32,036 nucleotides of DNA from Thermaceae bacterium. Lineage in GTDB: Bacteria; Deinococcota; Deinococci; Deinococcales; Marinithermaceae. Shown in pieces: positions 3,523 through 18,212 of the stretch. Position numbers and translations under genes: made by a program. Below the pieces are notes generated by a model. That model saw only the letters and a list, made by a program, of their open reading frames with translations. It was not told where the DNA came from and ran no database searches. Position 1 is the stretch's first letter; each line of letters opens with the position of its first letter. The stretch covers positions 1-32,036 of the forward strand of contig JALSRQ010000149.1 of the NCBI GenBank assembly GCA_026984675.1, read 5' to 3'.

Positions 3523-4309
3523 AGGAAGGATCGCCCTGGTCACCGGCGCCGGCAGCGGCATCGGCGCCGCCATCGCCCAACGGCTCGCCCGCGAGGGGGC
3601 CAAGGTCTGGGTCACCGACCGCGACCCGGCCGCCGCCGAGCGGGTGGCCAAGGCCATCGCCGCCGAAGGCGGCCGGGCCCGAGCCCAGCCGGTCGACGTC
3701 ACCCGGCGGGCCGACCTCGAGGCCGCCCGCGACGCCGCCTACGCCGAGGACGGCCGGGTGGACATCGTGGTGGCCAACGCCGGGGTCAGCACCATGCGGC
3801 CCTTCCTCGACCTCACCGACGAGGACTGGGACTTCAACTTCACGGTTAACGCCAAGGGCGTCTTCTACACCCTCCAGACCTTCGCCCGGCGGATGAAGGA
3901 CCAGCCGCTCATGGCCGGGAGCGAGCTCCGCGGCAAGCTGATCGCCACCGCCAGCATGGCCGCCCGCCAGGCCGCGCCCCTGCTCGCCCACTACTCGGCC
4001 TCGAAGTTCGCGGTCCTCGGCCTGGTGCAGGCGGCGGCCAAGGAGCTCGCGCCTTTTAAGCTCACCGTCAACGCGGTGAACCCGGGCTTCGTGCGGACCT
4101 CGATGCAGGAGCGGGAGGTCCGGTGGGAGGCCGAGCTAAGGGGCATCACCCCGGAGGAGGTGATCGCCGACTACCTCCGGCAGACCCCGCTTGGGCGGCT
4201 GGAGACCCCCGAGGACGTCGCCGGGGTGGTCGCCTTCCTCGCCGGCCCCGACGCCGACTTCATCACCGGCGAGGCGATCGAGGCGAACGGCGGGGCCTGG
4301 ATCTTCTAG
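3515..4309 (+). CDS. Short-chain dehydrogenase/reductase, polyol-dehydrogenase-like
   Basis: 264 aa from ATG 3515, which overlaps the kinase stop by 8 nt. This is a classical SDR: TGAGSGIG dinucleotide loop (10-17), Asp35 at the end of the second strand (favours NAD over NADP), DV at 61-62, NAG at 88-90, catalytic Ser147 (TASMA), Tyr160 and Lys164 (HYSASK), and the closing GEAIEANGGAWI. The overall look is close to sorbitol/galactitol-type dehydrogenases, which oxidise a polyol to a ketose. Together with the downstream transporter and upstream kinase it suggests polyol to ketose to ketose phosphate. The class is certain; the substrate is inferred from context only. Confidence 0.9.
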   Translation: MLEGRIALVTGAGSGIGAAIAQRLAREGAKVWVTDRDPAAAERVAKAIAAEGGRARAQPVDVTRRADLEAARDAAYAEDGRVDIVVANAGVSTMRPFLDLTDEDWDFNFTVNAKGVFYTLQTFARRMKDQPLMAGSELRGKLIATASMAARQAAPLLAHYSASKFAVLGLVQAAAKELAPFKLTVNAVNPGFVRTSMQEREVRWEAELRGITPEEVIADYLRQTPLGRLETPEDVAGVVAFLAGPDADFITGEAIEANGGAWIF

Positions 4310-4320
4310 GAGGCGCGACC

Positions 4321-5136
4321 TTGAAGCGGCAGCGCACCCTGGCCACCTGGATCACCACCGCCCTCCTGCTCGCCGTCACCCTCTACTTCCTGCTCCCGCT
4401 GCTTTGGACCCTGCGCACCGCTCTCCTTCCCGAGGGGCGGGCCTACGCCCTGCCCCCGGAGTGGGGGCCCTGGACGCTGGAGAACTTTGCCGCCATGCTC
4501 ACCGGGCCCTTCGGGCGGGCGTTCAAAAACAGCCTGGTGGTGGCCGGGGCCACCGTGCTGGTGGGGCTGCCGCTCGCCGCCATGCTCGGCTACGCCATGG
4601 CCCGCTACCGGGTCGGCGGGGCCCCCTTAAGGTTCTCGGTGCTGGCCACCCAGATGCTCCCCCCGATCGTGCTGGCGCTGCCGCTTTTCGCCCTCTTCCG
4701 GGCGGCCCGGCTCACCAACACCTACCCCGGGCTGGTGCTCGCCTACCTGGCCTTCGCCCTGCCGTTCATGAGCTGGCTGTTGATGGGGTTCTTCCAGGGG
4801 CTCCCCCGGGACCTCGAGGAGGCCGCCCTGGTCGACGGCGCCACCCCGGCGGTGGTCTTCGCCAAGGTCGTCCTGCCCCTTTCCGCCCCGGGGCTCTTCG
4901 CCGCCGGGGTGCTCGGCTTCATCCTGGCCTGGAACGAGTTCCTCTTCGCCCTTTTGCTCACCGGCCGGGATACCCAGACGATCCCGGTGGCCCTGGCGGC
5001 GCTGATGACCCAGCGGGGGGTGCTGTTTGCCCGGGTGGCCGCCGGGGTGATCCTCTCGGTGCTGCCGGTGCTGCTCCTCGCCCGGGTGGTCGACCGCTAC
5101 CTGGTCGAGGGGCTCACCTTCGGCGCGATCAAGTAG
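4321..5136 (+). CDS. Carbohydrate ABC transporter permease, MalG type
   Basis: 271 aa starting at TTG 4321, with AGGAGG 6-12 nt upstream that overlaps the stop of the dehydrogenase gene. Six hydrophobic segments can be seen. The EAA loop that docks to the ATPase is present (DLEEAALVDGATPAVVFAKV, then LPLSAPG), followed by AWNEFLFALLLTG, which is characteristic of the MalG/CUT1 group, and a C-terminal VEGLTFGAIK tail. It forms the membrane channel together with the MalF-type partner encoded after the binding protein. The rare TTG start is the only well-spaced start; the longer upstream frame overlaps the dehydrogenase. Confidence 0.9.
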   Translation: MKRQRTLATWITTALLLAVTLYFLLPLLWTLRTALLPEGRAYALPPEWGPWTLENFAAMLTGPFGRAFKNSLVVAGATVLVGLPLAAMLGYAMARYRVGGAPLRFSVLATQMLPPIVLALPLFALFRAARLTNTYPGLVLAYLAFALPFMSWLLMGFFQGLPRDLEEAALVDGATPAVVFAKVVLPLSAPGLFAAGVLGFILAWNEFLFALLLTGRDTQTIPVALAALMTQRGVLFARVAAGVILSVLPVLLLARVVDRYLVEGLTFGAIK

Positions 5137-5150
5137 GGAGGTGGTTTGAG

Positions 5151-6422
5151 GTGAAAGGTACGCGGTGGTTTTTGGCGGCGGTGCTGGCGCTGGGCCTCGG
5201 CCTGGCCCAGGCCCAGGTGGTCCTCCGGGCGCTGATGGAGGACGTCCCCGAGACCCACATCATCGAGAAGCTGCTCCCCGACTTCGAGAAGAAGACCGGC
5301 ATCAAGGTCGAGTTCGAGGTGGTGCAGTACGGGGCCATGCACGACAAGCTGGTCTCCCAGCTGTTGGCCCCGGAGAGCGCCTACGACTTCCTCGAGGTCG
5401 ACTTCCTCTGGGCCGGCGAGTTCCCGGCGGCGGGCTGGCTGGAACCCCTCATGCCCTACGTCAAGAAGTCGGGCTTCGACCTCTCCCCCTACCTGCCCTC
5501 GATGCTCGACCTGGTCGGCTACTACAACGGCAAGCTCTACATGATCCCCATGTACAACTACGCGATGGGGCTGATCTACCGCACCGACCTGCTCGCCGAT
5601 CCCACGCTCAAGGCCAAGTACCGGGAGCGCTTCGGCAAGGAGCTGGCGGTGCCGACCACGCTGGAGGACTACGTCCAGACCAGCGTCTTCATGAAGCAAA
5701 ACGCCGGGGTGGCGGGGGCCGCCATGCAGGGCCAGCGGGGCGACCCCAACTTCATGGAGTTCTCCAACTACGTCTTCGGGGCCGGCGGCGACTTCGCCGA
5801 TAAGAACTGGCACGTCACCCTGGACGGCCCGGCCGGCGAGAAGGCCCTCCGTCTCTACGTCAAGAACATCCGCGAGGCCGCCCAGAAAGGCGCCCTGAAC
5901 GCCAACCTCGACGACACCTACCGGGAGATGTGCCAGGGCCGGGCCTGGAGCATGATCACCTACTGGTGGATGCTGCCCCAGCTCGACGACGCCCAGAAGT
6001 GCCCCAAGGTGGCGGGCAAGGTGAAGCTTGCGGTGATGCCCGGCGGCCACGGGGTGAACGGCGGCTGGGGCTGGGCGATCCCCAGGAACTCGGCCCACAA
6101 GGAGGAGGCCTGGAAGTTCATCCAGTGGGTGGAGTCCAAGGAGATCGTGAAGAAGCGGGCCCTCATGGGCCACGCGCCGACCCGCCGGGACGCCCTCACC
6201 GATCCCGACGTCCTCGCCAAGTACCCCTACTACGCCCAGGTCCTCAAGATCCTCGAGGGCGCCAAGAAGGTCCCGATCTTCGCCTACACCGCCGAGATGG
6301 AGGACGTGGTCGGCCGCGAGGTCTCGCTGGCGGCCACCGGCCAGAAGGACGTGAAGACCGCGATCCGGGACGCCGCCAAGGGGCTCTACGGGCTCTTTAA
6401 GAAGGCCGGGCTGGTGAAGTAG
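5151..6422 (+). CDS. Extracellular carbohydrate-binding protein of the ABC transporter
   Basis: 423 aa from GTG 5151, preceded by GGGAGGTGG. The N-terminus is a signal peptide (KGTRWFLAAVLALGLGLAQA, cleavage probably near residue 20); no lipobox Cys is present. The mature part is a family-1 solute-binding protein: LLPDFEKKTGIKVEFEVVQY near the start, a central YNGKLYMIPMYNY hinge region, GGWGWAIPRNS and AWKFIQWVESKE. Many Tyr and Trp residues fit stacking on sugars. It sits between the two permease genes. It should capture the sugar or polyol outside the membrane and deliver it to the MalF/MalG-type pair; the ligand is unknown. Confidence 0.92.
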   Translation: MKGTRWFLAAVLALGLGLAQAQVVLRALMEDVPETHIIEKLLPDFEKKTGIKVEFEVVQYGAMHDKLVSQLLAPESAYDFLEVDFLWAGEFPAAGWLEPLMPYVKKSGFDLSPYLPSMLDLVGYYNGKLYMIPMYNYAMGLIYRTDLLADPTLKAKYRERFGKELAVPTTLEDYVQTSVFMKQNAGVAGAAMQGQRGDPNFMEFSNYVFGAGGDFADKNWHVTLDGPAGEKALRLYVKNIREAAQKGALNANLDDTYREMCQGRAWSMITYWWMLPQLDDAQKCPKVAGKVKLAVMPGGHGVNGGWGWAIPRNSAHKEEAWKFIQWVESKEIVKKRALMGHAPTRRDALTDPDVLAKYPYYAQVLKILEGAKKVPIFAYTAEMEDVVGREVSLAATGQKDVKTAIRDAAKGLYGLFKKAGLVK

Positions 6423-6424
6423 CC

Positions 6425-7282
6425 ATGCGGGCGAGGGTGGGCGCCTCCTTTGCCGCCCCCGGGGTGCTGGTGCTCCTTTTGGTGGTGGCCTTTCCCCTCC
6501 TCTACGCGCTCGCCCTCTCGTTTTCGAGCTACACCTTCCTAAAGCCCACCCTCGCCCCCTGGGTGGGGCTCGCCCACTACCTCGAGGCCTTCCGCGACCC
6601 CTACTTCCTAAACTCCCTCCGACTCACCGCCCTCTACGCCTTCCTCACCGTGGGGCTCTCGCTCTTGATCGGCCTGGCCATCGCCGTGCTCCTCTTCCAG
6701 CCGGCCCCGGGCAAGGAGTTTTTCTACGCGGTGATCTCGGTGCCGATGCTGATCGCCCCGGTGGGGGTGGCGCTGATCTGGAAGATGATCCTCCACCCCG
6801 AGCTGGGGATCGTCACCTACCTGCTCGGCCGGCTGGGGTTTTCCGCCCCCGACTTCTTCGGTGACCCCCGCTACGCCCTCTTCACCCTGGCCCTGGTCGA
6901 CACCTGGCAGCAGGTCTCCTTCGTGGCGCTGGTGCTCCTGGCGGGGCTGAGGAGCCTGCCCAAGGAGCCCCTCGAGGCCGCCCTGGTCGACGGCGCCAGC
7001 TTCCCCCAGCGCTTCCTTCACGTAACGTTGCCCCTGCTCCGGCCGGTGATCGGGGTGGTGCTCATTCTCCAGACCATCGCCGAGCTCCGCACCTACGACC
7101 TGGTCTACGTCCTCACCCGGGGCGGCCCCGGCGCGGCCACCGACCTCCTCGCCTACTTCATCTACCGCAAGGCCTTTTTGGGCCTCGACCTGGGGGGTGC
7201 CTCGGCGCTCGCCTACCTCCTCTTGCTCTTGACCCTGGCCCTGGTGGTCTTCTACTACCGGCGGGTCTTCGCCGAGATCTGA
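6425..7282 (+). CDS. Carbohydrate ABC transporter permease, MalF type
   Basis: 285 aa beginning 2 nt after the binding-protein stop. It has six predicted membrane spans and an EAA loop (PLEAALVDGASFPQRFLHV, then TLPLLRP). The stretch YVLTRGGPGAATDLLAYFIY is the C-terminal signature of MalF/UgpA-type permeases. It is the last gene of the operon; no ATP-binding subunit follows, and the next gene starts on the other strand 4 nt later with no room for a terminator. The pair probably uses a shared MsmK/MalK-like ATPase encoded elsewhere (common for CUT1 transporters). Confidence 0.92.
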   Translation: MRARVGASFAAPGVLVLLLVVAFPLLYALALSFSSYTFLKPTLAPWVGLAHYLEAFRDPYFLNSLRLTALYAFLTVGLSLLIGLAIAVLLFQPAPGKEFFYAVISVPMLIAPVGVALIWKMILHPELGIVTYLLGRLGFSAPDFFGDPRYALFTLALVDTWQQVSFVALVLLAGLRSLPKEPLEAALVDGASFPQRFLHVTLPLLRPVIGVVLILQTIAELRTYDLVYVLTRGGPGAATDLLAYFIYRKAFLGLDLGGASALAYLLLLLTLALVVFYYRRVFAEI

Positions 7283-8664: not shown

Positions 8665-9276
8665 CTATTCCATCGGCTTGATCTCCCGGGGCGGGGGCCC
8701 GTGGGCCCAGGCCTCCCGGAGCGCCCGCATCGCCTTGCCCCGGTGGGAGTAGCGGGCCTTCTCGCCGGGGAGCATCTCGGCGAAGGTGCGGCCGGCCTCG
8801 GGGACGAAGAAGAGGGGGTCGTAGCCGAAGCCCAGGTGGCCCCGGGGGGCCTCGAGGATCAGCCCCTCGGTCTCGCCGCGGTAGACCTCGAGGTGGCCGT
8901 CGGGGTAGGCCAGCACCAGCACGGCGACGAAGCGGGCGGTGCGCTCCTCTAGGGGCACCCCCTTGAGCCGCTCGAGGAGGTAGAGGTTGCGGTCGAGGTC
9001 GCGGGTGTGGCCGCCGAAGCGGGCGGAGTAGACCCCGGGCTCGCCGCCGAGGGCGTCGACCTCCAGCCCGGAGTCGTCGGCCAGGGCCGGCAGGCCGGTT
9101 TGCTGGGCGGCCGACGCCGCCTTGAGCATGGCGTTGTCCTCGAAGCTCATGCCGGTCTCCTCGGGGGGGCGGTAGGGCCGCTCCGCCGGGGTGACGAACC
9201 GCCAGCCCAGGGGCCGGAGGCCCTTTTTGAGCTCGCCGAGCTTGCCGGGGTTGGTGGTGGCCAGAAAGACCCGCAT
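8665..9276 (-). CDS. rdgB: Non-canonical purine NTP pyrophosphatase (RdgB/HAM1/ITPase)
   Basis: 203 aa, ATG 9276, close to the family norm. All hallmark blocks are visible: FLATTNPGKLGELKKGL (phosphate-binding), ETGMSFEDNAMLKA, ADDSGLEVDALGGEPGVYSARFGG split over residues 80-103, GFGYDPLFF, and SHRGKAMRAL. It hydrolyses ITP, dITP and XTP to the monophosphates, cleaning damaged purines from the nucleotide pool. It heads an operon with the DUF155-like and YraN-like genes. A TAAGCT box ends 9 nt before the ATG and a purine run (GGGGGGAGG) directly abuts it, so the leader is very short. In many bacteria rdgB directly follows rph; here rph lies 2.9 kb away on the same strand. Confidence 0.95.
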   Translation of the reverse strand: MRVFLATTNPGKLGELKKGLRPLGWRFVTPAERPYRPPEETGMSFEDNAMLKAASAAQQTGLPALADDSGLEVDALGGEPGVYSARFGGHTRDLDRNLYLLERLKGVPLEERTARFVAVLVLAYPDGHLEVYRGETEGLILEAPRGHLGFGYDPLFFVPEAGRTFAEMLPGEKARYSHRGKAMRALREAWAHGPPPREIKPME

Positions 9277-9285
9277 CCTCCCCCC

Positions 9286-9291
9286 AGCTTA
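9286..9291 (-). promoter_or_regulatory. Possible -10 box (TAAGCT) of the rdgB operon
   Basis: TAAGCT on the minus strand, 9 nt before ATG 9276. It has the TANNNT form but slightly longer spacing than the other boxes in this window. Confidence 0.35.
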
Positions 9292-9309
9292 CCCACTTCC
9301 CCCGGGTGC

Positions 9310-9315
9310 TAAAGT
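9310..9315 (+). promoter_or_regulatory. -10 box (TAAAGT) of the GGDEF-EAL gene, leaderless type
   Basis: TAAAGT ends 7 nt before ATG 9323. It faces the rdgB box across only about 18 nt, so the two divergent promoters overlap in the 46-nt gap. Confidence 0.45.
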
Positions 9316-9322
9316 TTTGGGG

Positions 9323-11464
9323 ATGACCGCCGCGGTGGGTGGCCGTTCGCGCCGGCTCCTGGGGGTCGCGGCGGCGCTGGCCCTGGCCTTTTTCCTTCTC
9401 CGTCCCGAGCTGGCGCGGGCCCTCGGCGACGTGCACCTCTTGCTGGCGGCCCTCTGGCTGGCCCCCCTGGGCTGGCTGCTCGGGCCCTGGGGCGGGCTCG
9501 GGCTGGGGCTCGCGATGGTGCTGCCCCTGGCCCTCGCCGGCTACCGCGGGGCCGACCTCGTCGCCCTCACCCTGGGAGCGGCGGCGGTGACCGGGGCCGG
9601 CGGGTGGCTGCGCCGCCGCACCGACCTCTACCGCTTCCGCGAGCGGGCCCTCCGCCTCCTGGGGCGGGTGGGGCTCCTGGCCGCCCAGGCCAGGAGCGCC
9701 GGGGAGCTCCTCGAGGGCGCCGCCGAGGCCGCCGTCGCCGAGGGCGGCTACCTGCTGGCGATGATCTGGGACCGGGTGCCCGGCGGCTTCCGCCCCCGGG
9801 TCTGGCGGATCGCCGACCCCCGGTTCGCGATCGAGGAGGAGGCGGGGCGGCTCGTGATCCAGCGGAACGGCCGGCCGGTGCTCACCCTCGACCTCGCCGC
9901 CCTGGACTGGGGGAAAACCGCCGCCGGGCAGGCCCTCGCCCGCCAGGAAACCGTGATCACCGACGCCCGCCGGATGCGGGGCTACGCCTTCGGCGAGGCC
10001 GCCCGGGTGCTCGGCTACCGCACCGCCATCGCGGTGCCGATCGCCGACCGGGAGGAGGTGGTGGGGGCGCTGGCGGTGACCCACCCCGAGCCCAGCCGCT
10101 TCGCCCGTGAGGAGGCCGAGCTGGTGCGGGAGGTGGGGGCGCTTTTGGGCTCGGCGCTGGAGCGGCTCGCCCTCCGCGAGCGGCTCCGCTCCCAGGCGAT
10201 CACCGACGCCCTCACCGGGCTCCTGAACCGGCGGGGTTTTTTGGAGTGGGGCCGGGTCACGCTGGAAAACGCCGCCCGGCGGGGGCGGCCGATGGCCCTC
10301 CTCTACCTCGACCTCGACCGCTTCAAGGAGGTCAACGACGCCCGCGGCCACGAGGCCGGCGACCGCTTGCTGCTGGCGGTGGCCCAGCGGCTGGCCCGGG
10401 CGACCCGGAGCCGCGACCTCCTGGCCCGGCTGGGGGGCGACGAGTTCGCCGCCCTAATCGAGGCCGACCGCGAGGGCGCCGCGACCGTCGCCAAGCGGAT
10501 CCGCCAGGACCTGGCCCGGCCGGTCGCCCTAAACGGCGAGGAGGTGCGAACCGGCGCCAGCATCGGCATCGCCCTCTTCCCCGACGACGCCGAGAGCTTG
10601 GAGGAGCTCCTCCGCAAGGGCGACCTGGCGATGTACCGGGCCAAGCAGGAAGGGCTCGGGTTCGCCCTCTTCGACCCCAAGGACGACCGCGCGCTGAGGG
10701 GCCGGGTGGCCCTGGAACACGCCCTCCGGAAGGCCCTGGCCGAGGGGGGGATCCGGGCCTACTACCAGCCGGTGGTCGACCTCGAGGCCGGGCGGCTGGT
10801 CTACCTCGAGGCCCTGGCCCGCTGGCAGGCGCCGCCCTCCAGCTTTATCCCCCTGGCCGAGGAGATCGGGGTGATCTTCGAACTCGACCTCGCCATGCTG
10901 GAGAACGTCGTCGCCCAGCTGGTGCGCTGGGAGGCGGACGGCCGGGTGCTGGCGGCGGGGGTCAACCTCTCGCCGAAGACCCTGAACCACGAGGGGCTGC
11001 CCGCCCTGATCGAGGAGCGGCTCGCCCACCACGACCTCGCGCCCGCCCGGCTGGTCCTCGAGGTCACCGAGGCCGCCCTCCTCACCCCCCGGGGGGAGGC
11101 CCACCTCGCCGAGCTCCACCGGCTGGGGCTTCGCCTCGCGATCGACGACTTCGGTACCGGCTGCGCCTCGCTGGAACGGCTGACCGACCTGCCCTTCGAC
11201 TACCTCAAGATCCCCCGCACCTTCGTCCGGGAGGTGGCGGCCTCCCCGACCCGCTCGGCGGTGGTGGCGGGGATCGGCCACCTGGCCCGCCACCTGGGGG
11301 TGCGGGCGATCGCCGAGGGGGTGGAGGGGGCGGGGGAGGAGGCCCGCCTCCGCGAGCTCGGCCTGACCCTCGCCCAGGGGTTCCGCTACGCCGCCGCCAT
11401 GCCCCCCGAGGAGGTCCCCGGCTGGCTGGCCCGGTTCCCCGCCCGCCTCCGGAACCCCTCCTAG
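9323..11464 (+). CDS. Membrane GAF-GGDEF-EAL cyclic-di-GMP enzyme
   Basis: 713 aa from ATG 9323. Residues 11-95 hold about four hydrophobic helices. Residues about 105-285 look like a GAF-type sensor. The diguanylate cyclase domain (about 295-455) has an intact GGDEF at 371-375 and an intact inhibitory site RSRD (362-365) exactly five residues upstream, so synthesis of c-di-GMP with product inhibition is expected. The EAL domain (about 465-705) has EAL at 496-498, NLSPKTL, LEVTEAAL, DDFGTG, LK at 628-629 and AEGVE, but the aspartate of the KID motif is Pro631 (KIPRTF), which may impair phosphodiesterase activity. It lies between rdgB and rph on the opposite strand and is followed by a lipoprotein gene. 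The signal sensed is unknown. Confidence 0.92.
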   Translation: MTAAVGGRSRRLLGVAAALALAFFLLRPELARALGDVHLLLAALWLAPLGWLLGPWGGLGLGLAMVLPLALAGYRGADLVALTLGAAAVTGAGGWLRRRTDLYRFRERALRLLGRVGLLAAQARSAGELLEGAAEAAVAEGGYLLAMIWDRVPGGFRPRVWRIADPRFAIEEEAGRLVIQRNGRPVLTLDLAALDWGKTAAGQALARQETVITDARRMRGYAFGEAARVLGYRTAIAVPIADREEVVGALAVTHPEPSRFAREEAELVREVGALLGSALERLALRERLRSQAITDALTGLLNRRGFLEWGRVTLENAARRGRPMALLYLDLDRFKEVNDARGHEAGDRLLLAVAQRLARATRSRDLLARLGGDEFAALIEADREGAATVAKRIRQDLARPVALNGEEVRTGASIGIALFPDDAESLEELLRKGDLAMYRAKQEGLGFALFDPKDDRALRGRVALEHALRKALAEGGIRAYYQPVVDLEAGRLVYLEALARWQAPPSSFIPLAEEIGVIFELDLAMLENVVAQLVRWEADGRVLAAGVNLSPKTLNHEGLPALIEERLAHHDLAPARLVLEVTEAALLTPRGEAHLAELHRLGLRLAIDDFGTGCASLERLTDLPFDYLKIPRTFVREVAASPTRSAVVAGIGHLARHLGVRAIAEGVEGAGEEARLRELGLTLAQGFRYAAAMPPEEVPGWLARFPARLRNPS

Positions 11465-11534: not shown

Positions 11535-12194
11535 ATGCGGGTAGCACGCTGGACCAAGGTCGTTGGGTTCCTCGCACTCCTCCTTACGCTCTCCGCCTGC
11601 GGCGGGCTGAACGCGCCCACCGCAATCTCGGGCGGCCACCTCCAGGGACGGATCGAAAACGGGTCGGGGAGCGCGAACAAACTGTACGCAATAGGCTACA
11701 GCTCCATTGATTCTTACGATCCCAAGCTTCTGGCGATCGCCGATATCAGGACCGACGGAAGCTTCTCGATCAACCTGGGCACGCCGGGTGAGGACGACCT
11801 GGTCTCGATCTCGAGCTTCCTCGATGGTCTGAACCTCACGGCGGACAACGGCAACGCCAAGCTCTACGGGGCCTTTTTGTATGTCGCGCAGGGCTCGTCG
11901 TCCTATGCCCTCTTCCTAGCCAGTAAAGATCCAAAGGATCTAAAAAACTTCCGCCCTGGCGACACCCTGAGCCCGATCCTGATACCCGGCGAGATGACCC
12001 CCTTAGTCAGCATCGTTTACGCCGACCAAAAGGTCACGCTCACTGGGGCGTATTACGGCATCGAGTTCAACGCCACCCTGGAAAAGGGATGGAACATTCT
12101 CCTCGCCACCAAGACCGAAGACGGCTGGAAGGTGACGGCCAAGAACCGAATTCCACCCGATCTCAGGTGGTTTATCTTCTACACTTCCGACTGA
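11535..12194 (+). CDS. Putative lipoprotein of unknown function
   Basis: 219 aa from ATG 11535, with a perfect GGAGGTGA at 11521-11528. A signal peptide ends in a lipobox (LTLSAC, Cys22), so the protein should be lipid-anchored outside the inner membrane. The mature part is rich in Ser, Gly, Asn, Thr and Tyr, looks beta-rich, and contains HLQGRIENGSGSANKLYAIGY and DGSFSINLGTPGEDD, reminiscent of carboxypeptidase-regulatory-like beta-sandwich repeats; I recognise no family with certainty. Base composition is visibly lower in GC than its neighbours (codons such as AAA, ATT, TAT, GAT occur freely), suggesting recent acquisition. Its last 16 nt overlap the 3' end of rph on the other strand. Confidence 0.8.
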   Translation: MRVARWTKVVGFLALLLTLSACGGLNAPTAISGGHLQGRIENGSGSANKLYAIGYSSIDSYDPKLLAIADIRTDGSFSINLGTPGEDDLVSISSFLDGLNLTADNGNAKLYGAFLYVAQGSSSYALFLASKDPKDLKNFRPGDTLSPILIPGEMTPLVSIVYADQKVTLTGAYYGIEFNATLEKGWNILLATKTEDGWKVTAKNRIPPDLRWFIFYTSD

Positions 12195-12904
12195 TCGCCC
12201 CGCAACCCCCGGTGGAGCTCGCGCACCAGGTCGGGGATGCGCCCCAGAGCGAGCTCCACCATCCTTTGGTAGACCGCCCGGGGCACCGGGCGGCCCTCGC
12301 CGCCGCCGTGCACCTCGATCACGTCGCCCTCGGCGGTGGCCACCACGGTGAGGTCGGCGTGGGCGTTCTCGTCCTCGACCTGGGTGGGATCGAGGAGGAT
12401 CCGGTCCTCCCCCTGCCAGACCACCCCCAAAGCGGCGAAGGGCAAAAGCGGCCAGTCGTCGAGCCGCCCCTCGCGCACCAGCCGGTCGAGGGCGAGCCAG
12501 AGCGCGGCGTAGCCCCCGAGCAGGCTGGCCACCCGGGTGCCGCCGTCGGCCTGGAGTACGTCGGCGTCGATCACCACCGTCTTTCCCGGGACCGCCTTGA
12601 GGTCGAGCGCGGCCCGGAAGGCCCGGCCCAAAAACCGCTGCACCTCCTGGGTGCGCCCCCCCAGCTTAAAGCGCTCCCGCTGGGTGCGGGTGCGGGTGGA
12701 GCGGGGCAAGAGGTTGTACTCGACCATCAACCAGCCCGATCGCCGGCCCACGTGCCGGGGCACCCCCTCGGCCAGGGTCGCCGCCGCCAGCACCCGGGTC
12801 TTTCCGAGCTCGACCAGCGCCGAGCCCTCGGCGTACTCGGCGTAGCCGGGGGTGATCCTAAGGGGCCGCATCTCCAGGGGTTCGCGACCGTCCCTCCGCG
12901 TCAC
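12179..12904 (-). CDS. rph: Ribonuclease PH
   Basis: 241 aa from GTG 12904. Recognisable blocks: TRRDGREPLEMRPLRI at the N-terminus, YAEGSALVELGKTRVLAAATL, the VEYNLLPRSTRTRTQRER phosphate/tRNA-binding loop, GRTQEVQRFLGRAFRAALDL, DADVLQADGGTRVASLLGGY, and the catalytic acidic region EDENAHADLTVVAT. It trims tRNA 3' ends phosphorolytically in the cytoplasm. The C-terminal half is somewhat divergent and Rrp41-like, but all expected blocks remain. TATCCT sits 7 nt before the start, suggesting a leaderless message. It normally neighbours rdgB, from which it is separated here by two opposite-strand genes. No terminator is visible at its 3' end, which overlaps the lipoprotein gene. Confidence 0.93.
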   Translation of the reverse strand: MTRRDGREPLEMRPLRITPGYAEYAEGSALVELGKTRVLAAATLAEGVPRHVGRRSGWLMVEYNLLPRSTRTRTQRERFKLGGRTQEVQRFLGRAFRAALDLKAVPGKTVVIDADVLQADGGTRVASLLGGYAALWLALDRLVREGRLDDWPLLPFAALGVVWQGEDRILLDPTQVEDENAHADLTVVATAEGDVIEVHGGGEGRPVPRAVYQRMVELALGRIPDLVRELHRGLRGDQSEV

Positions 12905-12911
12905 GCCGACC

Positions 12912-12917
12912 AGGATA
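12912..12917 (-). promoter_or_regulatory. -10 box (TATCCT) of rph, leaderless type
   Basis: TATCCT on the minus strand followed by 7 nt and GTG 12904; no ribosome-binding site is present in the spacer. Confidence 0.5.
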
Positions 12918-12938
12918 CGCCCCCGGCGGCCGGGCGCC

Positions 12939-12944
12939 TAGCAT
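12939..12944 (+). promoter_or_regulatory. -10 box (TAGCAT) of the binding-protein/two-component operon
   Basis: TAGCAT followed by 6 nt and ATG 12951. The short purine run in the spacer (AGGGG) could also act as a weak ribosome-binding site, so the leaderless reading is tentative. Confidence 0.4.
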
Positions 12945-12950
12945 AGGGGC

Positions 12951-13880
12951 ATGCGACGGCTGGCCTGGCTGCCCCTCCTCCTGCTGGCCGCCTGCCGGCC
13001 GGCCCCCCTTCCCCTGGTCGGGGTGCTGGTCTCCGGCCCCGGCCGCCTCGCCCGGGTGGCCGGCCTCGAGGAGGGCCTCAAGGCCTACCCCGAGCGGGCC
13101 CGCTTCCAAGTCTGCCAGGCCGCCACCAAAGCCGGGCTCGCCGCCTGCGCGCGGCGGCTGGAGGCGGCGGGGGCGACGGCGCTGGTGACGGTGGGCGGGG
13201 TCGAGACCCAGGCGGCGATCGCGGCCACCGGGCGGGTCCCGATCCTCTTCGTGGGCCTCGCCGCCAGCCTCGACTGGGGGTTCTTCCCCCGGCTCGACGC
13301 CCCCGGCGGCCGGGTGAGCGGGGTCGACAACGGCTACGCCGAGCTCGCCGGCAAGCGGCTGGAGTGGCTGGTCCGGGCCTGGCCCGAAACCCGGCGGGTG
13401 CTCGTCCTCTACCAGCCCGAGGTGGTGCCGACCCCGCGGGCGCTCAGGAACCTCCGCCGGGCGGCGGCGATCCTCGGGGTCGCGCTCGACCTTTTCCCCG
13501 CCTCCCGCCCCCAGGCGATCGCCGGCCTCGCCGAGCGCCTCGGGGCCCGACCGCCCGACGCCGCCCTCCTGCTCCCGAGCTTCGTCTGGGAAAACCACCT
13601 CGACCGGGTGCTCGCCACCTTGAACGCCGCCGGCGTCCCCCTGGTCGGCCTGAACCGCGAGGAGGTCGCCCGGGGCGCCGCCCTCGCCTACGGCGCCGGC
13701 AACCGGGACCTGGGCCGCCAGGCCGCCGGCATGCTGGCCCGGGTGCTGGCCGGCTACCCCATCGGCCGCCTGCCGGTGGAGCGGCCCGACCGGCCGCGCC
13801 TCACCCTGAACCGCCGGACCTGGGCGCGGCTCGGTCGGACGCCGGCGCCCCGGGTCGTCGATCTGGCGGAGGCCCCGTGA
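12951..13880 (+). CDS. ABC-substrate-binding-like lipoprotein, likely sensor partner
   Basis: 309 aa from ATG 12951. A short signal peptide ends in a lipobox (LLLAAC, Cys15). The mature protein has two alternating alpha/beta lobes, with VGVLVSGPGRL, ALVTVGGVETQAAIAATGRVPILFVGL and a GVDNGYAEL segment, matching the ABC_sub_bind family (periplasmic-binding-protein fold, TrpX-like). The second lobe has LLPSFVWENH and PLVGLNREEVARGAALAYG. No permease or ATPase gene is nearby. Instead the stop overlaps the start of a histidine kinase (GTGA), so it more likely captures a ligand and passes the signal to the kinase than feeds a transporter (inference from context). The ligand is unknown; aromatic or amino-acid-like ligands occur in the family. 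Confidence 0.8.
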   Translation: MRRLAWLPLLLLAACRPAPLPLVGVLVSGPGRLARVAGLEEGLKAYPERARFQVCQAATKAGLAACARRLEAAGATALVTVGGVETQAAIAATGRVPILFVGLAASLDWGFFPRLDAPGGRVSGVDNGYAELAGKRLEWLVRAWPETRRVLVLYQPEVVPTPRALRNLRRAAAILGVALDLFPASRPQAIAGLAERLGARPPDAALLLPSFVWENHLDRVLATLNAAGVPLVGLNREEVARGAALAYGAGNRDLGRQAAGMLARVLAGYPIGRLPVERPDRPRLTLNRRTWARLGRTPAPRVVDLAEAP

Positions 13881-15511
13881 GCCGGCTGGAGTACCGCTTC
13901 CTGCTGGCTGCCGCGGCGGCGGCGCTCCTGCCCCTGATGCTGGTCTGGGCGGCGGGCTGGCAGCTCGCCCGGGGGGCCTACCTCGAGGCCGCCCGGGCCC
14001 GGCTCGCCGGCACCGCCCTGGCCCTCGCCGCCCAACTGGAACGGCGGATCGCCGCCGAGGACGCGGTCTTGAAGAGCGTCTGCCGGCTGGCCGGCGACGA
14101 CCCCGCCTGGGCCGCCGAGGTGGCCCTCGCCGCCCTCGACGAGCTCGATGAGATCGAGGTCAACGGCCGCCTGGCCTCGCGGTTCCGGGTGGTCGGCCCG
14201 GGGGACGCCCTGCCCCCCGCCCCGGACGGGAGCGTGCGCGACGACGCCTGGGGCGAGCCGCTCCTTCGGCGCGCGACCGGGTGCGCCGGGGGACGGGTCC
14301 GGGCCGACCTCCGCCTGCGTCCGCTGCTGGCCCCGGTGGGGCGGGTGGGCGGCGGGCTCAGGGCCCGGCTCTTCGGCCCCGGGGGGCGGCTCCTGGCGCG
14401 CTCGGGTCCGGGGGGGCCGCCGGGCCGGTGGCTTTCCACCCGGAAGCGGCTCGCCAACGGCTGGCAGGTCGAGGTCGCCCTCCCCGAGCGCGCCCTGCTC
14501 GGCCCCCTCTACCGGGCCAACGCCGCCATGCTCGCCCTCCTCGCCCTGGCCCTCTTCGCCAGCGCCCTGCCGGGGGTCCGGCTCGGCCGCTCGCTGGCCC
14601 GGCCCCTGGGCCTGCTGGCGCGGGCGGCGGGGGACCTCGAGGCCGGCCGGCGACCGCCCCCGATCCCCGAGACCGGCCCCGAGGAGGCCCGCCGGGCGAT
14701 CCGGGCCTTCAACCGCATGGCCGAGGCCCAGGCCGCCCGCACCGAGGCCCTGGAGCAAGCGGTCAAGGCCCGCACCCACGAGCTCGCCCTGGCCCTGGCC
14801 AAGGCGCGGGCGGCGAACCGGGCCAAGACCCGCTTCCTGGCGGCGGTGAGCCACGAGCTCCGCACCCCCCTCACCAGCATCAAGGGCTACGCCAGCAGCC
14901 TTCGGAGCCCCGACGTGGACTGGAGCGAAGAGGAGCGCCGGGAGTTCCTGGCGGTGATCGAGGAGGAGGCCGACCGGCTGGCCCGCCGGGTCGACGACCT
15001 GCTCGACTTCGCCCGGGCCGAGCGGGGGGAGCTGGCGCTGGTGCCCGTGCCCCTGGACGCCGCCGCCTGGCTCCGGGCCCAGCTCCCGAGGCTCCGGGCC
15101 CTGGCCGCCGGGCACCCCCTCACCCTGGACCTCGACCCCCGCCTCCCGGTCCTGGCCGCCGACCCCGACCGGCTCTGGAGCCTGCTCGCCAACCTGGTGG
15201 AGAACGCCGCCCGGCACACCCCGCCGGGTACCCCGATCAAGGTCTGGGCCCGCCCCGCCCCCGGGGGGCTGGAGCTTGGGGTCGAGGACCGGGGGCCGGG
15301 GATCCCCGACGCCGAGAAGGAGCGGGTCTTCGAACCCTTCCACCGGCTCGACGACCGCCCCGGAGGGAGCGGGATCGGGCTGGCGGTGGCCCGGATGGTG
15401 GTCGAGGCCCACGGCGGGCGCGTCGCGATCGAGGACGCCCCAGAGGGGGGCACCCGGGTCCGGGTCTGGCTGCCCGCGGAGGGGAACGATGCGGATACTG
15501 GTGGTGGATGA
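13877..15511 (+). CDS. Membrane sensor histidine kinase
   Basis: 544 aa from GTG 13877, overlapping the previous stop by 4 nt. TM1 is at about 8-32, an external domain covers about 35-210, TM2 about 214-234, and HAMP about 235-287, followed by a short coiled coil. The HisKA H-box is FLAAVSHELRTPLTSIKGY with phospho-accepting His326. The ATPase domain shows the N box (LVENAARHTPPGT), G1 (VEDRGPGIPD), F box (VFEPFHRL) and G2 (GGSGIGLAV), so it looks fully functional. The external domain is poorly conserved and could bind the lipoprotein encoded just upstream. The 3' end overlaps the response regulator by 23 nt, an obvious cognate pair. Confidence 0.93.
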   Translation: MSRLEYRFLLAAAAAALLPLMLVWAAGWQLARGAYLEAARARLAGTALALAAQLERRIAAEDAVLKSVCRLAGDDPAWAAEVALAALDELDEIEVNGRLASRFRVVGPGDALPPAPDGSVRDDAWGEPLLRRATGCAGGRVRADLRLRPLLAPVGRVGGGLRARLFGPGGRLLARSGPGGPPGRWLSTRKRLANGWQVEVALPERALLGPLYRANAAMLALLALALFASALPGVRLGRSLARPLGLLARAAGDLEAGRRPPPIPETGPEEARRAIRAFNRMAEAQAARTEALEQAVKARTHELALALAKARAANRAKTRFLAAVSHELRTPLTSIKGYASSLRSPDVDWSEEERREFLAVIEEEADRLARRVDDLLDFARAERGELALVPVPLDAAAWLRAQLPRLRALAAGHPLTLDLDPRLPVLAADPDRLWSLLANLVENAARHTPPGTPIKVWARPAPGGLELGVEDRGPGIPDAEKERVFEPFHRLDDRPGGSGIGLAVARMVVEAHGGRVAIEDAPEGGTRVRVWLPAEGNDADTGGG

Positions 15512-16124
15512 CGACCCCAAGATCGCCCGCCTGATCGAGAAGAACCTCACCGCCCGGGGCCACCGGGCGGGGGTGGCGAAAAGCGGCGCGGAGGCCCTCC
15601 GGCGCTACGCCGAGGGGGGCTGGGACGCGGTGCTCCTCGACCTCTTGCTGCCGGATCTCGGGGGTCTTGAGGTCCTAAGGGCGATGCGCGAGGACCCCCG
15701 GGTCCCCATCGTGGTGATCTCGGCGATCGGGGAGGAGGCCACCAAGGTCGCCGCCCTCGACCTGGGGGCCGACGACTACCTGACCAAGCCCTTCGGCATC
15801 CCCGAGCTCCTCGCCCGGATCCGGGCGGTGGCCCGCCGCTACGGCGCCGCCCCCGGCCTGGCCCTCGACCCCGGCGGCTTCGTCCGGATCGGCAAGCGGG
15901 AGATCCGCCTCACCCCCACCGAGTTCGCCCTGCTCTCGGTGCTCCTCTCCCGCCCCGGGGCCACCTTCGGCCACGCCGAGCTGCTCGACCGGGTCTGGGG
16001 CCGCGGCGAGGGGGACCTCCACTACCTCCACGTCTACGTCAACCGCCTTCGCAAGAAGCTCGGCGACGCCCTGGCCATCGAGGCCGTCCCCGGCCGGGGC
16101 TACCGCGCGTTGAGGACTTTTTGA
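15489..16124 (+). CDS. OmpR/PhoB-type response regulator
   Basis: 211 aa from ATG 15489, inside the end of the kinase gene. The receiver domain (1-115) has the acidic cluster Asp7-Asp9, the phosphorylation site Asp51 (VLLDLLLPDLGG), a Ser in the switch position (VISAIGEE) and the KPF motif (DDYLTKPFG). The C-terminal winged helix (about 128-210) has RLTPTEFALLSVL, a recognition helix HYLHVYVNRLRKKLGD, and GRGYRALRTF, typical of the OmpR family. It is the output of the adjacent kinase. The next gene downstream, 37 nt away on the same strand, is the dihaem cytochrome, a plausible target. Confidence 0.95.
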   Translation: MRILVVDDDPKIARLIEKNLTARGHRAGVAKSGAEALRRYAEGGWDAVLLDLLLPDLGGLEVLRAMREDPRVPIVVISAIGEEATKVAALDLGADDYLTKPFGIPELLARIRAVARRYGAAPGLALDPGGFVRIGKREIRLTPTEFALLSVLLSRPGATFGHAELLDRVWGRGEGDLHYLHVYVNRLRKKLGDALAIEAVPGRGYRALRTF

Positions 16125-16148
16125 GCCCGGCGGGGCGAAGCTGGGAGG

Positions 16149-16156
16149 GGAGGTGA
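16149..16156 (+). promoter_or_regulatory. Strong ribosome-binding site of tsdA (decides the start)
   Basis: GGAGGTGA, fully complementary to the 16S 3' end, ends 5 nt before ATG 16162 and overlaps the alternative in-frame GTG 16153, which it therefore excludes. Confidence 0.75.
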
Positions 16157-16161
16157 AGTCT

Positions 16162-17025
16162 ATGAGGAACGCCCTTACCCTGGCCCTCGTCGCGGCGGTG
16201 GCCGGCCTCGCGCTGGCCCAGAAGGTCCCCGACCCGCCCAAGGCCTATCCCCCGGGCGAGCTCGGGGAGCTCATCAAGCTGGGCGAACAGATCGTCATGC
16301 AGACCAACACCCACCCGCTGACCAAGGCCTACGTGGGCAACAAGCTCCAGTGCAAGAGCTGCCACCTGCAGGGCGGCAAGACCAAGAACAAGTACGCCAC
16401 CTTCATCGGCACCGCCGCCGTCTTCCCCGCCTATAGCCCCCGGGAAAAGGCGGTGGTGACGCTGGAGGACCGCATCCTGAACTGCTTCATGCGCAGCATG
16501 AACGGCACCCGTCCGCCGGTGGCCTCGAAGGCCTCGGTGGCGATGGCCGCCTACATCACCTGGCTCTCCACCGGGATCCCGATCCAGCAAAACCCCAAGA
16601 AGCCGGTCGGCCTCTACAGCATGCCCTGGCCCGACCCGGCGATCGCCAAGCTGGTGAAGTCGGGTAAGGTGGACGAAACGCACGGCGAGCAGGTCTATAT
16701 GCAGAAGTGCGCCGCCTGCCACGGGCAAGACGGCCAGGGCGTGGGCGCCTTCCCGCCGGTCTGGGGGCCCCATTCCTATAACGCCGGCGCCGGCATGGCC
16801 AATGTGGTCAAGGGGGCCTCCTGGGCGAAGCACAACATGCCCCTCGGCAACCCCAACCTCACCGACCAGGAGGCGGTGGACGTGATGGCCTTCATCAACA
16901 GCCACGAGCGGCCGAGCTTTAAGCTCACCGACCACCTGCCCCCGGCCGACCGGATGGGGGTCTACAACTCCAACGTCCCCGAGCAGATCATCCCCGCCCC
17001 CACCTGGCCGCCGAAGAAGAAGTAG
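16162..17025 (+). CDS. tsdA: Dihaem cytochrome c, TsdA-like thiosulfate dehydrogenase/tetrathionate reductase
   Basis: 287 aa with a Sec signal peptide (MRNALTLALVAAVAGLALAQ) for export. Two haem-binding motifs are present: CKSCH (64-68) and CAACH (183-187). Between them, LEDRILNCFMRSMNG carries Cys108, the unusual thiolate haem ligand typical of TsdA, and WGPHSYNAGAGM plus KHNMPLGN (Met226, probable second-haem ligand) are also TsdA hallmarks. The reaction is thiosulfate to tetrathionate or the reverse, with electrons exchanged with other c-type cytochromes. I start at ATG 16162 because a perfect GGAGGTGA (16149-16156) lies 5 nt upstream; the in-frame GTG 16153 overlaps that site. The gene follows the two-component system and ends before a strong hairpin. 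Direction of catalysis cannot be read from sequence. Confidence 0.85.
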   Translation: MRNALTLALVAAVAGLALAQKVPDPPKAYPPGELGELIKLGEQIVMQTNTHPLTKAYVGNKLQCKSCHLQGGKTKNKYATFIGTAAVFPAYSPREKAVVTLEDRILNCFMRSMNGTRPPVASKASVAMAAYITWLSTGIPIQQNPKKPVGLYSMPWPDPAIAKLVKSGKVDETHGEQVYMQKCAACHGQDGQGVGAFPPVWGPHSYNAGAGMANVVKGASWAKHNMPLGNPNLTDQEAVDVMAFINSHERPSFKLTDHLPPADRMGVYNSNVPEQIIPAPTWPPKKK

Positions 17026-17084: not shown

Positions 17085-18212
17085 CTAAACGTTAAAGAGC
17101 ACGTGCATCACGTCGCCGTCCTGCATCGCGTAGTCCTTGCCCTCGGTCCGGACCCAGCCCTTCTCCTTGGCCCGGGCCCAGCCCCCGGCCTCGACCAGCC
17201 TCTCCCAGGGGATGACCTCGGCCCGGATGAAGCCCCGCTCCATGTCGGAGTGGATCTCGCCGGCGGCCTCGGGAGCCTTGGTCCCCCGCCGCACCGTCCA
17301 GGCCCGGACCTCCTTTTCGCCGGCGGTGAAGAAGGTAATGAGGTCGAGCGCCCGGTAGGCGGTGCGCACCAGCCGGAAGAGCCCGGGCTCCTTAAGGCCG
17401 TAGGCGGCGAGGAGCTCCCTCGCCTCCTCCTCGGGGAGCTCGGCGAGCTCGGCCTCGAGCTTGGCGCTGACCATCACCAGCTCGGCCCCTTCCTCCCGGG
17501 CGCGCTTTTTTAGCGCCTCCACGTAGGGGTTCCCCGCCCCTTCAGGGAGGTCGGTCTCGGCCACGTTGGCGACGTAGATGAGGGGCTTGGCGGTGATCAG
17601 CCCGAGCTGGCGGAAAAGCCCTTTGAGCCTCTTCCCCGCTTCCCCCTCGGGAAGCGGAAAGCGCCTAAGGGCCCTGCCCTCCGCGAGCCAGTCGTAGAGC
17701 GGGGTGAGGAGCAATAGCTCCTCGCGGTCGGCCTTATGGACCCGGGCGCTTTTTTTTAGCCTTTCGAGCCGGCGCTCGAGCACCCCGAGGTCGGCCAAGG
17801 CGAGCTCGGTCTCGATCGTCCCCACGTCGCGAAGGGGGTCCACCGAGCCCTCGACGTGGACCACGTTCGCGTCCTCGAAGGCCCGGATCACGTGGGCGAT
17901 GGCGGCGACCTCGCGCACGTGGGCGAGGAACTGGTTGCCAAGCCCCTCCCCCTTGTGGGCCCCCCGCACCAGCCCGGCGATGTCCACGAACTCCACGTGG
18001 GTGGGGACGATCGGCGGGGTGCGGTCGCCCTTTTTAAAGACCGCGGCGAGCGCCTCCAGCCGCGCGTCGGGGAGCGGCACCACCCCGACGTTCTTCTCGA
18101 TGGTGGCGAAGGGGTAGTTGGCGGAAAGCGCCCCCGCCCGGGTCAGGGCGTTGAAGAGGGTGGACTTGCCCACGTTGGGAAGGCCGACGATTCCGACTCC
18201 GAGGTTCGGCAT
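17085..18212 (-). CDS. ychF: Ribosome-binding ATPase YchF (Obg-related)
   Basis: 375 aa from ATG 18212. The P-loop is GLPNVGKS (10-17), G2/G3 are in the PFATIEKN and VDIAGLVRGAHKGEGLGN blocks, and the G4 position reads NVAE instead of NKxD, the reason this family prefers ATP to GTP. A coiled-coil region sits in the middle (LERRLERLKKSARVHK) and the C-terminal TGS domain starts near ITFFTAGEKEVRAWTVRRG and ends in DVMHVLFNV. It is a conserved cytoplasmic ribosome-associated P-loop NTPase involved in translation and stress responses. It is transcribed alone, divergent from the hydrolase gene, and ends before the hairpin shared with tsdA. Confidence 0.97.
   Translation of the reverse strand: MPNLGVGIVGLPNVGKSTLFNALTRAGALSANYPFATIEKNVGVVPLPDARLEALAAVFKKGDRTPPIVPTHVEFVDIAGLVRGAHKGEGLGNQFLAHVREVAAIAHVIRAFEDANVVHVEGSVDPLRDVGTIETELALADLGVLERRLERLKKSARVHKADREELLLLTPLYDWLAEGRALRRFPLPEGEAGKRLKGLFRQLGLITAKPLIYVANVAETDLPEGAGNPYVEALKKRAREEGAELVMVSAKLEAELAELPEEEARELLAAYGLKEPGLFRLVRTAYRALDLITFFTAGEKEVRAWTVRRGTKAPEAAGEIHSDMERGFIRAEVIPWERLVEAGGWARAKEKGWVRTEGKDYAMQDGDVMHVLFNV

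Follow-up and report, generated by a model that had tools for sequence, protein, structure and literature searches.

What does a solute-binding lipoprotein do when no transporter genes accompany it? This question is raised by a 32,036-nucleotide stretch of contig JALSRQ010000149.1 from a hot-vent Thermaceae bacterium (assembly GCA_026984675.1; the whole stretch is called the window here), in which four tightly packed genes in one direction encode an ABC_sub_bind lipoprotein, a histidine kinase (HK), an OmpR-type response regulator (RR) and a TsdA-type cytochrome. A sequence-only reading of the window had proposed that the first three form a sensing system in which the lipoprotein recognizes an external ligand, possibly a sulfur compound, and controls the cytochrome. 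Our analysis indicates that the block is likely to be a signalling unit of three components that serves a single enzyme, with a sulfur compound as the most likely ligand.

Results

Four tightly packed genes end with tsdA

All four genes are open reading frames on the forward strand at the positions originally named. The first (12951–13880) encodes a lone solute-binding lipoprotein (SBP; ABC_sub_bind, type I periplasmic-binding fold) which matches PF04392 over residues 23–299 with 103 bits against a cut-off of 25.9. It has a lipobox, LLLLAAC15, with Cys15 invariant in 9/9 orthologs, and is the sole PF04392 protein of its genome. Its stop codon overlaps the GTG start of the HK gene (13877–15511) by 4 bp (GTGA, at 13877), the start of the RR gene (15489–16124) overlaps the end of the HK gene by 23 bp, and 28 bp lie between the RR stop and the start of tsdA (16153–17025). 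The SBP gene has rph and the HK gene as its neighbours, with RR and tsdA further along; no ABC permease or ATPase gene adjoins it, and the ABC genes at 4191–7282 of the window belong to another SBP family (SBP_bac_1, BPD_transp_1). The description of a lipoprotein without transporter genes that overlaps a two-component pair and is followed by tsdA is thus borne out.

In the HK, two predicted membrane helices, suggested by both sequence and model, flank a periplasmic domain and are followed by HAMP, HisKA and HATPase_c/HATPase_c_2 domains. A model of the periplasmic residues ~27–213, made from three sequences (mean pLDDT 78.9), has a dCache-like fold and matches dCache and related sensor domains with Z of 12–14.5 over ~157–231 residues. 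At the level of sequence, the N-terminal part of the kinase gave no match among PDB sequences at E 1 or better, and none among plasmids at E 1e-3. The arrangement is that of SBP-coupled kinases, with a separate SBP gene beside a kinase that has an extracytoplasmic sensor domain; the TtrS/ThsS architecture, a PhnD-like PF12974 domain fused before HisKA and HATPase_c, is not seen in the HK. The RR combines a receiver (Response_reg) with a winged-helix Trans_reg_C domain, as expected for the OmpR/PhoB type. A conserved Cys pair in the sensor domain of the kinase is found only in the window's genus and in genome G008.

By its sequence the cytochrome is a TsdA, a dihaem cytochrome c of the thiosulfate dehydrogenase/tetrathionate reductase type, and interconversion of thiosulfate and tetrathionate is predicted for it. 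It contains a SoxA-TsdA_cyt-c domain (PF21342) and a cytochrome c domain, and phmmer matched its residues 31–257 to A. vinosum TsdA (4wq7/4v2k) with an E-value of 1.6e-42. Both CXXCH motifs (C67/C70/H71 at 67–71 and C186/C189/H190 at 186–190), C111 and M229 are invariant in nine aligned copies, and alignment to solved TsdA assigns C111 as the haem-1 Cys ligand and M229 as the haem-2 Met ligand, following the roles described in PMC5146829. The A. vinosum and C. jejuni enzymes (PDB 4v2k, 4wq7) are described as having the same two CXXCH haems, haem-1 Cys and strictly conserved haem-2 Met (PMC5146829). K226-H-N228-M229 in the window matches K252-x-N254-M255 of C. jejuni TsdA, an enzyme described as biased towards tetrathionate reduction (PMC5146829). 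The host lineage and the regulation differ from those of both enzymes.

The block is kept or lost as a unit

We surveyed chromosomes of one phylum, in a sample of 111 Deinococcota genomes; 14 genomes of the window's own family appear in the searches. With the SBP as query, matches were found in 9 of 61 genomes, the window's own counted, and a profile built from the nine orthologs matched 9 of 111. A PF04392 search returned exactly those nine genomes with one copy each, always the SBP of the block. All nine belong to the window's own family. The overlap at the SBP/HK junction is kept in all nine (4 bp in eight, 1 bp in G010, locus L018) even though SBP identity ranges from 49 to 77%, which argues that the block is more than a chance neighbourhood.

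Orthologs of tsdA (E 1e-25 or better) are present in 13 of the 111 genomes. Eight of these are SBP genomes, in each of which tsdA sits at the RR gene; the other five, from genus g6 of another family, have no SBP, and so tsdA can exist without the trio. The sequence-only reading had made its case depend on the trio not being common without tsdA, and indeed no intact trio without tsdA was found in the sample. The four genes are contiguous and in the same order in G000, G001, G007, G009, G010 and G012; in G011 the contig stops within tsdA, and in G004 the block is divided between two contigs, with pieces that fit together. The ninth genome, G008, has an open SBP frame followed by a kinase cut after ~222 residues beside a transposase-like open reading frame (L013:8467–10050). 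Neither RR nor tsdA is present at this SBP locus, and the genome has no tsdA ortholog. Directly before the SBP of G008 lies a cytochrome gene with two cytochrome c stretches (PF00034; L013:6775–7440), whose product is possibly an electron partner.

The block is flanked by genes that we take, judging by their sequences, to be rph (RNase PH; 12179–12904, reverse strand) and ychF (a GTPase; 17085–18212, reverse strand), and the name murI is assigned in the same way. Both the window and G001 have the block between rph and ychF; G009 has it in this interval too, together with murI and an MFS gene. In G003 and G006 the ychF–rph gap is 14 and 23 bp, the outer neighbours are unchanged and the block is missing, while only murI stands between ychF and rph in G013 and G008. 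The whole block is therefore cleanly absent in 3 of the 14 family genomes (G003, G006 and G013), and G008 combines an empty site with the broken remnant, which is located away from it. This count leaves out G002, in which both rph and ychF reach the end of a contig, and G005, in which we found neither ortholog. Where the rph–ychF site is assembled, the unit is either present whole or absent whole.

A near-unique direct repeat precedes tsdA

A candidate regulator box, the 11-bp direct repeat TTGAG-GACTTT-TTGAG, lies before tsdA at 16110–16125 on the forward strand, where it covers the RR stop codon. The consensus TT(G/T)AG-N6-TT(G/T)AG precedes all nine block-linked tsdA copies, and this repeat is newly described here. 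The box of the window is shared with G001 and G004, G007, G009, G011 and G012 have TTTAG-GACTTG-TTGAG, and the two tsdA copies of G010 are preceded by TTTAG-GACATT-TTTAC and TTTAG-GACTTT-TTTAG. Across the nine copies, the half-site matches itself at 46/63 positions at an offset of 11, compared to at most 29/63 at offsets of 6–10 and 12–15. The two G010 copies form a tandem pair (L018:10988–11893 and 12131–13039), 67% and 73% identical to tsdA of the window, with the repeat before each.

We searched 12 family genomes for the pattern TTKAGGACWTKTTKAG with up to one mismatch and obtained ten matches, nine of which are the tsdA sites. The tenth, with one mismatch, lies inside a G001 gene that presumably encodes an M32 carboxypeptidase. 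The reversed pattern gave three matches in the same 12 genomes. No match was found in G003, G006, G008 and G013, the searched genomes without the RR and tsdA of the block, and none, at up to two mismatches, at the five tsdA loci of the Thermus-like genus g6, which have no trio. Neither the window nor loci L013–L020 and L023 have a second box before the SBP gene, of the kind autoregulation would call for, when up to two mismatches are allowed. The near-uniqueness of the box in the genome supports control of tsdA by the regulator.

In the window's genus the first base of the box is codon position 1 of the RR gene (TTG AGG ACT TTT TGA), whereas in the other genus it is codon position 2, and the stop falls within the first half-site (GTT TAG). 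Since the codon register differs between the two genera, it is the DNA rather than the protein that appears to have been kept. The same follows from G012 and the second G010 copy, where the box is separated from RR, with ~240 to 400 bp of other DNA preceding it, and still lies ~40 bp before tsdA. The extra DNA between RR and the box in G012 (~350 bp, L017:1835–2187) has TTTAGG at both ends and looks like a small mobile insertion. A TGAAAT sequence 11 bp after the box, clear in 5/9 copies, could be a −10 element. PhoP of M. tuberculosis, also of the OmpR type, is described as having a site of 7-bp direct repeats separated by 4 bp (PMC4832192); the resulting repeat spacing of ~11 bp is compatible with our box, and binding of the box by the RR is predicted.

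A proposed circuit from lipoprotein to tsdA

In the circuit that we propose, the lipoprotein, anchored outside the cytoplasmic membrane, would close on its ligand. The HK would then read the lipoprotein, or serve as its docking site, through its periplasmic dCache-like domain. The kinase would phosphorylate the RR, which would bind the direct repeat before tsdA so that transcription of tsdA starts. The SBP, HK and RR genes would probably be expressed at a steady level, because there is no box at their start. That the SBP signals to the HK is suggested by the gene overlap and by the loss of the two genes together. We regard it as quite probable that the trio controls tsdA, because the translational overlap is conserved, the genes are present or absent as a unit, and the near-unique box is missing where RR and tsdA are missing; these features also lend support to the earlier idea that three parts form a sensing unit connected to the cytochrome.

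The ligand of the lipoprotein

We tentatively assign a sulfur oxyanion as the SBP ligand, a choice a little short of an even call, and within it thiosulfate or tetrathionate, the predicted substrate and product of the cytochrome, or a related compound, would be the most likely. A somewhat unlikely alternative is that the trio controls tsdA as an energy-supply gene in response to something other than sulfur, with the SBP reporting an amino acid, an organic acid or another nutrient, or only modulating an HK that itself senses redox state or a small molecule. The SBP model, built from three sequences with a mean pLDDT of 80.3, finds its best matches in 3lft, 3lkv and 6hni/6hnj, and these nearest structural relatives are described as binding L-Trp, Phe or Tyr (PMC6816091). 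Furthermore, many of the dCache domains among the fold matches of the HK are listed with amino acids or small metabolites. However, CD0873 Glu263 and Tyr279, residues said to set specificity (PMC6816091), align to N235 and N251 of the SBP (by phmmer, with an offset of 21 derived by hand) and these are variable among the orthologs, whereas the SGxGR, GGxET, AASxDW and DNxYAEL loops are invariant in 9/9 and the longer GLAASxDW is invariant or nearly so. The fold suggests that these loops line the cleft. Because they are invariant, the orthologs probably share one ligand, which need not be an aromatic amino acid. In addition, the SBP scores 37.4 bits against the NCBIfam TrpX equivalog, far below the cut-off of 390, and tsdA is the sole gene tied to the block.

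We also compared the loops with those of the solved relatives as a route to the ligand; the aromatic-specificity positions are not kept, yet this comparison identified no ligand. Cys55 and Cys66 of the SBP (13113–13148) are invariant in all nine orthologs and are perhaps a disulfide or a redox-sensitive pair.

Several points weigh against a sulfur-responsive, three-component control of tsdA. The relatives that bind aromatic amino acids give no hint of a sulfur ligand, and the HK may sense alone through its own dCache-like domain. The box pattern was derived from the tsdA sites and so hits them by construction, which leaves its absence elsewhere as the informative part; nine copies make a small sample, of which some (G007, G009 and G011) are nearly identical, and the −10-like TGAAAT is weak in the window's own genus. 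Finally, O. profundus, whose genus is presumably among the relatives, is described as failing to grow when thiosulfate was the electron acceptor (PMC3111992).

Discussion

Less likely readings: tsdA as passenger, the SBP as importer subunit

tsdA could instead be a mere passenger of a trio cassette. The RR would then control other genes, and the repeat would be bound by a different factor or be left over from the 3' end of the RR gene. Joint loss is expected of linked genes irrespective of what they do, and in one genus the repeat does fall within the last codons of RR. We nevertheless consider this quite unlikely: the repeat stays by tsdA where other DNA intervenes upstream (G012 and the second G010 copy), it keeps its 11-bp period, the second genus has it in a different codon register, and it has essentially no other genomic site.

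It is very improbable that the SBP is a subunit of an ABC importer encoded elsewhere, with an incidental position before the kinase. In favour of this reading, its relative TrpX is described as part of an importer whose permease and ATPase are encoded alongside it (PMC9382623), and BPD_transp_2 permeases are many (53 matches in three genomes). Against it, the start–stop overlap with the HK gene is kept in 9/9, no other PF04392 protein occurs in the 111 genomes, and the SBP is lost together with HK, RR and tsdA. Five unpaired-looking permeases scanned among those 53 matches are sugar or LivM types by appearance.

Comparison with known sensing systems

The sequence-only reading called the link between this ligand and the lipoprotein's family apparently undescribed, which stands in part. 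TtrSR and ThsSR of Shewanella/Salmonella are described as sensing tetrathionate and thiosulfate, respectively, and as lying beside the enzyme genes that they control (PMC5408782), and TtrRS of V. parahaemolyticus is described as sensing tetrathionate, as activating ttrRS-ttrBCA-tsdBA (tsdA directly) and as autoregulating (PMC11293645). Sensing of these ions by a system next to its enzyme genes thus has precedents. In the open-access literature we found no report of a PF04392 protein as kinase partner, nor of a separate SBP controlling tsdA.

Like ThsSR and TtrSR, the block has a presumed receptor with a periplasmic-binding-protein fold beside an enzyme gene; their receptor is described as part of the kinase protein, in the form of a fused PhnD-like domain (PF12974; PMC5408782), whereas that of the window is PF04392, unfused and lipid-anchored. 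The V. parahaemolyticus system shares with the block a two-component system clustered with tsdA, which is its target there, but its cluster also has ttrBCA and tsdB (PMC11293645), and the block has neither ttr genes nor a tsdB neighbour. The block further differs from this TtrRS in its separate lipoprotein, dCache-like kinase and OmpR-type RR, and in having no box before the SBP gene.

The LuxP–LuxQ system pairs a binding protein of type I, LuxP, with the tandem-PAS kinase LuxQ; LuxQ was not among the 50 fold matches listed for the HK, which excludes nothing. Other kinases read by separate binding proteins have been described, as in GltB-GtrS-GltR (PMC7927077) and in a general statement (PMC11113362), and CuaD is a further case of an SBP-coupled kinase (PMC10384115). 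Common to these systems and the window is a separate binding protein, often encoded beside the kinase, which carries the ligand signal there and would do so in the window; the families, ligands and targets of LuxPQ, GltB-GtrS-GltR and CuaD differ from those of the block. TrpX, CD0873 and VC_1101 share the fold of the SBP with detectable sequence similarity, and CD0873 is likewise a lipoprotein; TrpX is described as encoded with permease and ATPase genes, which the SBP is not, and the specificity residues differ (PMC6816091, PMC9382623). Both the three-component principle and a link from a two-component system to tsdBA are therefore known (PMC7927077, PMC11293645). The combination of parts looks new, though such circuits are known elsewhere.

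A more specific and rather doubtful proposal is that a PF04392 lipoprotein, derived from aromatic amino acid importers, lost its transporter and became the tetrathionate or thiosulfate receptor of a dCache kinase, with the only genomic box of the RR before tsdA, and that this evolved independently of TtrSR/ThsSR. If so, the lipoprotein would represent a new class of extracellular sulfur-oxyanion receptor, in a one-input, one-output sulfur switch of thermophilic Deinococcota. Should the ligand be thiosulfate or tetrathionate, thermophiles would provide a second, unrelated protein solution for sensing these ions, and the compact single-target circuit could serve as a heat-stable sulfur sensor once moved into a laboratory organism. 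Independently of the ligand, the box offers a directly testable regulator–target pair, and the system would exemplify an importer-type binding protein turned dedicated sensor.

Relatives on plasmids and a neighbouring gene

tsdA matches occur in 51 plasmid records, of which we opened six regions. The one from Cupriavidus is unannotated; the other five show no annotated kinase within 4.5 kb, and two of these five have other SBPs, three proteins that are all PF13531; one of the three was compared with the SBP of the window and is unrelated in sequence. The plasmid tsdA genes of Bosea and Paraburkholderia (L116:6174–7163 and L119:890–3513) lie near lone PF13531 binding proteins and TlpA/thioredoxin-like proteins. 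PF04392 relatives were found in 72 plasmid records; two regions were opened and neither has an annotated kinase. A Rhizobium plasmid (L115:4677–7470) carries an SBP relative, annotated as an ABC transporter substrate-binding protein, whose gene shares a 17-bp overlap with that of an adenylate/guanylate cyclase; this may be a further case of the SBP's family serving in signalling.

Beyond rph, the window encodes a GAF-GGDEF-EAL protein (9191–11464), whose gene still adjoins rph in the block-less genomes G003 and G006.

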